Part shown: positions 22,883 through 24,999 of the stretch, piece after piece
Layout of the letters: each line of letters begins with the position of its first letter
Position numbering within the stretch: position 1 is the first letter of the stretch
Source of the DNA: Methanosarcinales archaeon
GTDB taxonomy: Archaea; Halobacteriota; Methanosarcinia; Methanosarcinales; Methanoperedenaceae
DNA: 64,000 nt
Direction: 5' to 3'
Assembly: GCA_905339155.1 (NCBI GenBank)
Contig: CAJPFJ010000028.1
Coordinates: forward strand, 62,001 to 126,000
The notes under the pieces: model-generated
Told to the model about the DNA's origin: nothing
Seen by the model: the letters and a program-made list of their open reading frames with translations, nothing else
Database searches by the model: none
Translations under genes and position numbers: made by a program

Positions 22883-23980
22883 TCAAACAAAACCAGCGAT
22901 CGCATTCTTCCTGTACTCTGAAAAATCGTCCTCCAATATCGCTTCCCTTGCCCCTTTCACTATTGACTGGATAAAGTGGAGATTATGTATGGAAGCAAGC
23001 CGAAGCGCCAGCAATTCGGATTCCTTGAAAAGATGATGCAGGTATGCTCTTGTATAGTTCTTGCAGGTATAACATCCGCAATTTTCATCAACAGGTGAAA
23101 AATCCATTGTAAATTTATTCCGCGCAATATCAATACTCCCTTTTGATGTCATAAGTGTCTGGTGCCTTGCATTTCGCGTTGGGAACGCACTGTCAAAAAT
23201 ATCGATGCCGGATTCGATCGCATTTAATATCTCGATCGGTGAACCCACGCCCATAAGGTAGCGCGCTTTATCTTCAGGAACAAGGGGAACGCTAGTTTTC
23301 AAAACATCATTCATTATTTCCTTGGGCTCACCAATCGATAGGCCGCCTATCCCATAGCCATCAAAATCCATCTCGATCAGTTCTTCGGCACACCTTTTCC
23401 GTAATTCTGCAAATGTCCCTCCCTGGAGTATGGCAAAAAAGAGCTGGCCATGGTTTTGTTCCACATTTTTAGCCATGGCTGCCCACTTTATTGTACGTTC
23501 CATTGAAGCTTGCACAACTTTAAACTCACTACCATAAACAGGACAATCATCAAGTATCATAGCCACATCGCTTCCAAGCAGCTTCTGGTTCTCAAGACAA
23601 ATTTCAGGAGTATAAGAATACTTTTTCCCGTCCCGCAGGTTCTTATAAATAATTCCCTCATCGTTGATCTTGAATGGAAAATCCTTCCGTATCATCTGGA
23701 AACCGCCGCTGTCAGTGAATATGCCTCCCTTCCAGTTCATGAATTTATGCAGGCCGCCAGCTCTGTGGATAACCTCCATTCCGGGAGCGAGCAACAGGTG
23801 AAAAGCATTGCTGATAAGCACTTCTGTCCCCATTTCGTACAGCTCATCGGTTGTGATCGTCTTCACGGTCGCTTTTGTGGCAACAGGCATGAATGCAGGA
23901 GTTTCTATGATGCCATGGTTTGTCCTGAGTCTTCCTGCTCTTGCTCCTGTATTTTTATCTGTGTGGATCAACTTGTACAT
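22883..23980 (-). CDS. tgt: Bacterial-type tRNA-guanine transglycosylase
   Basis: 365 residues, the bacterial length, not the longer archaeal TgtA with PUA domain. Seen: TDSGGFQ with D90, [17 protein letters not shown], nucleophile D263 in [13 protein letters not shown], and the zinc site C301-x-C303-x2-C306...H332 with bacterial-like spacing. Bacterial Tgt exchanges G34 of GUN-anticodon tRNAs for preQ1. It is encoded 2 bases after queA on the same strand, the classic bacterial gene pair. In archaea the related TgtA acts at G15 for archaeosine, so this gene is most likely an acquisition from bacteria. Confidence 0.9.
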
Positions 23981-23982
23981 TA

Positions 23983-24999
23983 TTATTTATCCCTTCGATT
24001 GAAAACAAGCATTGCATCCCCGAAACTGTAAAACCTGTATGAATGTGATATGGCTTCATTATAAGCCTCCATCAATCGTTTCCGGCCTGCAAAAGCGCTC
24101 ACAAGCATCAAGAGCGTGGATTTTGGGAGGTGGAAGTTTGTGATCATAGCATCAATTCTTGACCCGAATTTATATTCAGGATAAATAAAAAGCTCGCTGA
24201 ATCCCTCTTTTTCTACTATTTTCCCATCAATGCATGAACTCTCAAGCGCCTTGACTGTTGTTGTCCCTACTGCTATGATTTTTCCTGGCGTTCCATTGAT
24301 AACATCTGCATTTTCCCTTCGGACAGAAATATATTCAGGTTCCATGATATGATATCGGATATCCTCAGCCTTGACTGGCGTGAAAGTCCCGGGGCTTACA
24401 TGAAGAGTGACATAAGCGATATTGACACCTTTTTCTTTTATTCTCCCCAATAGATCGTTCGTGAAATGAAGACCGGCTGTTGGCGCTGCAATTGAGCCTT
24501 TTTCTTTCGAATAGACCGTCTGGTAACGGTTCTTATTATGGAGTTTTTGTTTGATATACGGAGGTAGCGGAGCTTCTCCTATTTTTTCAAGAATATCAGG
24601 AAGATCCCCATTGCAATTAAAATTAACAAGATACCTGTTTGTGTTGGGCCTCTCCAATATCCGGAGCACTGTTGCCTCAAGCTCACCGAAACTGAGTCTT
24701 GTACCTTCATGAATATTCTTTCCGCGTATCATGCACTCATAACCAGCCTCATTTCTTGATACAACAAGTGCTTCCACATGGCCACCTGTGCTTTTTTTTC
24801 CTATGAGCTTTGCGGGTATTACTCTTGAATCATTAAGAACAAGAGTATCTCCGGCTTCAAAGTAATCAGGGACATCGCAGAAAAAACGGTGATCGATCTG
24901 TTTCCCGACCACCATTAATCTTGATGCATCTCTTGGTTCAATTGGAGATTGGGCAATAAGTTCTCCGGGAAGATGATAGTCAAATTCGGAAAGTTTCAT
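23983..24999 (-). CDS. queA: QueA, S-adenosylmethionine:tRNA ribosyltransferase-isomerase
   Basis: 338 residues, full length for QueA, which transfers the ribosyl part of SAM to preQ1 in tRNA to form epoxyqueuosine. Diagnostic blocks: [19 protein letters not shown] at the N-terminus, [33 protein letters not shown] and [16 protein letters not shown]. The queuosine pathway is bacterial; archaea are not known to use QueA. With tgt directly after it, this is a two-gene queuosine unit, co-transcribed with polB. Confidence 0.93.

Follow-up and report, generated by a model that had tools for sequence, protein, structure and literature searches.

A candidate ATP-driven iron-sulfur preQ0 reductase in a predicted de novo queuosine pathway of Methanoperedens-type archaea

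The locus considered here lies in a 64,000-nucleotide stretch of DNA (the window) from a genome of Ca. Methanoperedens (G000), and centers on two genes of the queuosine (Q) pathway on the minus strand. The first of these, queA (23983..24999), codes for a tRNA preQ1(34) S-adenosylmethionine ribosyltransferase-isomerase of 338 amino acids, which matches the family model NF001140 at full length, over residues 1-334 (414 bits, cut-off 324), as well as TIGR00113 (369 bits, cut-off 267), and aligns over its full length with the bacterial protein of PDB 1vky (4.3e-94). The second, tgt (22883..23980), encodes a 365-residue tRNA guanine(34) transglycosylase of the bacterial type: it scores 453 bits with the tRNA guanosine(34) transglycosylase model TIGR00430 (cut-off 307), falls far below the cut-off of the TgtA model TIGR00432 (160 against 350 bits), and aligns over its full length with the bacterial T. 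maritima enzyme (PDB 2ash, 2e-105). Its CXCX2C...H zinc site retains all four ligands (C301, C303, C306 and H332), the catalytic Asp motifs TDSGG and FDSAFPTR are present, and its GGLSIGE motif is the same as in 2ash. The arrangement given in the preliminary description, with queA and tgt 2 bases apart and upstream of polB, is borne out, and both products fall within curated families.

The flanking genes lie outside the pathway. The polB gene (20238..22817, same strand) begins 65 bases beyond tgt and encodes a family B DNA polymerase of 859 amino acids (PF00136, 2e-107; above the TIGR00592 cut-off); it is also found near queA and tgt in several relatives. Directly upstream of queA is the remnant of an IS1634-type transposase gene (25036..25641, minus strand; PF01609, 1.1e-8), which aligns solely to the last third of the NF033559 model (87 bits, cut-off 100). 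Genes for a ParE-like (26411-26677) and a MazF/PemK-like (28221-28580) toxin lie at most 4 kb from queA. No match to a preQ1 riboswitch came up with Rfam across the window and 8 neighbourhoods. A gene for a SAM hydroxide adenosyltransferase is a frequent neighbour of queA or queH in 11 other Methanoperedens genomes; in G004, on which PF01887 and PF20257 were tested, it stands directly upstream of queA (L087:4801-5583). A group II intron signature (RF00029) was found near queA-tgt in the f2 genome G058 (L088:3022-3098).

We compared 60 order-level relatives, grouped into families f1 (that of the window) to f5. QueA is present in 41 of these, with tgt alongside, namely in 33 of the 34 f1 genomes, all seven f2 genomes and a single f4 genome; it is absent from f3, f5 and the other f4 genus (g9). 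QueH occurs in nearly the same genomes, and in G000 its gene (contig C37, position 49034) codes for a protein that exceeds the family cut-off (PF02677, 3.6e-61) and matches PDB 7lc5 (3e-31). In trees with mostly Firmicutes as the bacterial representatives, the Tgts of the Q-bearing archaea form one clade apart from the sampled bacteria (support 100/100), and the archaeal QueA proteins group together, albeit weakly (94/60), with f1 and f2 each forming one clade. The phylogeny called for in the preliminary description thus places the archaeal sequences together for both proteins. The window's genome is a 3.34 Mb draft with 5.4% estimated contamination, and QueA and Tgt are mainly bacterial elsewhere, which could be read as bacterial genes brought onto archaeal DNA by chimeric assembly or faulty binning. 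However, the queA-tgt pair recurs in upwards of 30 separately assembled genomes, including the single-contig G036, and this recurrence, together with the two trees, leaves that reading with practically no credence; the chimeric junction near 22.8-25 kb raised earlier is refuted by the recurrence. The queuosine genes are therefore an old, lineage-wide trait that extends beyond any single genome.

A recent transfer into G000 was also considered, and is ruled out by the same trees and by ordinary GC content. An origin by transfer is nevertheless plausible, because among 394 sampled genomes of the phylum QueA turned up in this order alone. The earlier idea of a transferred pathway accordingly survives in part: bacterial-type queuosine genes do stand beside TgtA and ArcS, but they characterize the lineage and not a single genome. 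Since QueA, QueH and Tgt have already been reported in DPANN and "some Euryarchaeota (Methanosarcinales)" (Castelle 2021, PMC8204110), the bare presence of queA, tgt and queH was known. That report deals with the same three genes, with Methanosarcinales named in its Figure 4; its sections on them cover the last three steps and mention neither a missing QueF, nor importers, nor a substitute reductase. What is new here concerns the QueF gap and a candidate substitute reductase pair, which lie outside the window.

The system resembles the QueH branch of the bacterial queuosine pathway in that QueA, the bacterial-type Tgt and QueH match their families and QueC precedes them in the pathway. It differs in that the archaeal host retains TgtA and ArcS for archaeosine and that QueF is missing. 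Because QueC is present in all 60 relatives, preQ0 can be made, and hence only one step is missing. A separate TgtA, one of the items proposed for the genome search, occurs in G000 together with ArcS, and RaSEA is encoded near queH in relatives. The search for preQ1 and Q genes proposed at the outset gave a divided result: QueC and QueH were recovered, but a genomic QueF was not, with no PF14489 match over the cut-off in 59 of the 60 genomes, G000 included, a search that a highly diverged QueF could escape.

The sub-threshold QueF matches in G000 and G019 proved to be FolE, which is found in four of the 60 relatives (once on a phage-like contig) independently of the Q genes. Contig C77 of G000 carries a bacterial-type queD-queE-folE cluster (L071:10161-11774), contig C50 of G019 a queE-folE pair (L073:7270-8582), and G025 a FolE fragment. 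The sole match over the PF14489 cut-off, in G005, is a real QueF, but we rejected it as an archaeal gene, its contig (C66; L072, 62 kb) bearing phage replication genes, including those for a phage-type polymerase, clamp, clamp loader and UvsX-like protein. This contig, binned with a Methanoperedens genome, codes for QueC, QueF, FolE and a QueE-like protein, and possibly derives from a virus with 7-deazaguanine DNA.

The preQ1 importers YhhQ (PF02592) and QueT (PF06177) are absent from every genome with Q genes, which rules out both as salvage routes. Without QueF and these importers, either preQ1 enters from outside by an unseen route or another enzyme makes it. Methanoperedens-type archaea live in consortia, and bacterial partners might supply preQ1 through a transporter yet to be recognized, leaving Tgt, QueA and QueH to finish Q. 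Tgt and QueA with QueG or QueH, in a genome lacking QueF, constitute the preQ1-salvage signature of many gut bacteria (601 genomes; PMC6593275), and further transporter families exist (PMC11130926). Against such salvage stand the absence of both importer families searched and the capacity of these cells to make preQ0.

The alternative, another enzyme, is suggested by the gene neighbourhoods. When the neighbours of queA and queH were clustered across genomes, few proved to be shared between f1 and f2. These were ABC-type ATPases, polB, MBL-fold and KaiC-type proteins (the last two in one f2 genome each), and a redox pair that lies near queA or queH in four genomes of f1 and two of f2. This pair (43567-45194 on contig C37 of G000) consists of an HGD-D reductase (PF06050) of 314 amino acids and a BadF/BcrA-type ATPase activase (PF01869/TIGR00241) of 228 amino acids, both of which score well above the respective cut-offs (PF06050, 79.3 against 28.4 bits; PF01869, 105 against 31.5; TIGR00241, 177 against 125). 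The two proteins match PF06050 and PF01869 alone, with no QueF domain (PF14489/TIGR03139) in either. Since a search for recurrent neighbours is what led to the pair, its initial co-location cannot count as independent evidence; the linkage to mptA, the phyletic split and a bacterial operon, described below, are independent of its discovery.

The activase has two invariant cysteines (C103 and C142), as expected for such activases, whose bridging cluster is held by cysteines. An alignment of 32 HGD-D sequences shows just three (C44, C72 and C268), which suggests a site with a single [4Fe-4S] cluster and not an [8Fe-9S] double cubane. By the number and order of these cysteines, and not by structure, it might parallel BzdO of class I benzoyl-CoA reductase, in which three cysteines hold an open [4Fe-4S] cluster (PMC11971306). 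A profile of the 32 HGD-D sequences recovered the double-cubane cluster protein (6eno/7yyl; 2.6e-9) and the beta subunit of 2-hydroxyisocaproyl-CoA dehydratase (3o3m_B; 7.7e-7). The pair shares with the double-cubane, 2-hydroxyacyl-CoA dehydratase and class I benzoyl-CoA reductase family the combination of a PF06050 subunit with a BadF/BcrA-type activase. It differs in that its HGD-D subunit is shorter, has only the three invariant cysteines, scores far below the cut-off of the double-cubane reductase model NF040772 (31.8 against 350 bits), and is linked by position to 7-deazaguanine genes.

Of the 43 genomes that have QueA or QueH, 41 contain an ortholog of the HGD-D protein (E<1e-130), as against none of the 17 that have neither; the two exceptions are incomplete genomes (81% and 63% complete). 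Fisher's test gives 4e-13 for this association when relatedness is ignored. Because the genomes are related, the split amounts to just two or three independent events: mapped on a tree of TgtA and ArcS, the Q label changes three times, with at least two changes forced by starred branches. Among these changes is the one between Q-plus and Q-minus genera within family f4. Reductase and activase genes are adjacent in 37 of 41 loci, the remainder being cut or not called. The pair lies away from queA and queH in most genomes; it adjoins queA in G038 and G034, both genomes of the f2 genus g4, and in four Methanoperedens genomes (G000, G003, G019 and G021) it is 3-5.5 kb from queH, with other genes in between. 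In 15 Methanoperedens genomes, mptA is located 330-890 bp upstream of the pair on the same strand; its product is a GTP cyclohydrolase (TIGR00294, over the cut-off) that catalyzes the first step toward preQ0. No HGD-D gene was found near queA within the flanks covered for bacterial loci, and in Firmicutes the pair is therefore not commonly located beside queA; nor were HGD-D relatives found in viral contigs and phages.

The bacterial operon comes from the fusobacterium Ilyobacter polytropus, the only source of an HGD-D homolog in a plasmid collection, where the genes for HGD-D, activase, queD, queE, folE and queC stand in a row. The homolog is just 33% identical and likewise scores well short of the NF040772 cut-off (56 against 350 bits). 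QueF has no match on the 961 kb replicon that carries this operon, to which the search was confined, and queH is not in the operon.

These observations weaken the earlier guess of preQ1 salvage from partners, which gives no account of the distribution of a pair that tracks the pathway, nor of its neighbours mptA, queA, queH and the Ilyobacter queDE-folE-queC genes, and would have the pair serve some other end. With QueC in all 60 relatives and YhhQ and QueT absent, we regard supply by partners as unlikely, and as less likely than preQ0 reduction by the HGD-D/activase pair. The pair could also play a different part in Q or preQ0 metabolism, as electron donor or activase for QueH or QueE, or in another 7-deazaguanine reaction, the enzyme making preQ1 being still unseen. 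QueH requires a reductant, BadF/BcrA-type activases feed electrons to partner enzymes, and the pair is near queH in four genomes. Yet an activase with its own HGD-D subunit is usually a self-contained enzyme, the Ilyobacter operon, in which queH is absent, ties the pair to preQ0 synthesis, and the QueF gap would remain; such a role accordingly appears improbable.

We therefore favour, as the probable reading, de novo synthesis of queuosine in these archaea, with the HGD-D/activase pair taking the place of QueF in the reduction of preQ0. Conversion of the nitrile to the amine is a plausible reaction for the pair and, given the QueF gap, the obvious one, its assignment being a prediction by association. 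In this proposal Ca. Methanoperedens and its relatives would run a Q34 pathway beside the normal archaeosine (G15) pathway. MptA or FolE, followed by QueD, QueE and QueC, would supply preQ0, which TgtA, ArcS and RaSEA would direct to G15. A share of it would be converted to preQ1 at the predicted three-cysteine [4Fe-4S] site of the HGD-D protein, with electrons from the BadF/BcrA-type ATPase. The bacterial-type Tgt is predicted to place preQ1 at G34 of tRNAs with GUN anticodons, QueA would add the epoxycyclopentane from SAM, and QueH would reduce the epoxide-stage product to Q. The NADPH-dependent QueF (PF14489, TIGR03139) carries out the same reaction, preQ0 to preQ1, as that proposed for the pair; the two are from unrelated families, the pair being an HGD-D iron-sulfur protein with an ATPase activase. 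Enzymes of the pair's family hydrolyse ATP to bring electrons to a very low potential, and one of them, the double-cubane protein, accepts acetylene, hydrazine and azide as substrates for reduction (PMC11971306). It seems fairly likely that preQ0 reductases include a second class with no relation to QueF, namely an ATP-driven Fe-S nitrile reductase that makes preQ1 in anaerobic archaea and at least one anaerobic bacterium and completes an archaeal de novo route.

A 2024 paper on Q salvage states that de novo queuosine synthesis is restricted to bacteria (PMC11130926). Once the QueF gap is filled, these archaea appear to hold every step. The proposed reaction, nitrile to amine with ATP-energised electrons, would open a new route to a tRNA base that is widespread. 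It would also assign a role to two proteins whose annotation at present goes no further than CoA dehydratase and activase. Where an organism has QueA and Tgt and lacks QueF, the usual label of preQ1 scavenger would have to be reconsidered. With 7-deazaguanines at both G15 and G34 in the same tRNA pool, the part that Q plays in archaeal decoding could be tested directly. Our literature search, with subscription papers mostly outside its scope, returned no paper linking queuosine with the HGD-D/activase family, for which earlier work may exist, and no mention of queuosine with Methanoperedens; nitrile to amine reduction by this family is not mentioned in the literature examined.

Two further genes neighbour the pair. 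A gene for a small PNPOx-type flavoprotein (PF01243; L210:5245-5655) stands beside it in all seven f2 genomes; its product is a possible electron donor, or may be unrelated to the pair. In four Methanoperedens genomes, a gene of the Elp3 family, concerned with wobble-uridine modification, is directly upstream of the pair, as at L301:5493-7100 in G020 (TIGR01211, over the cut-off) and L070:1912-3528 in G000.
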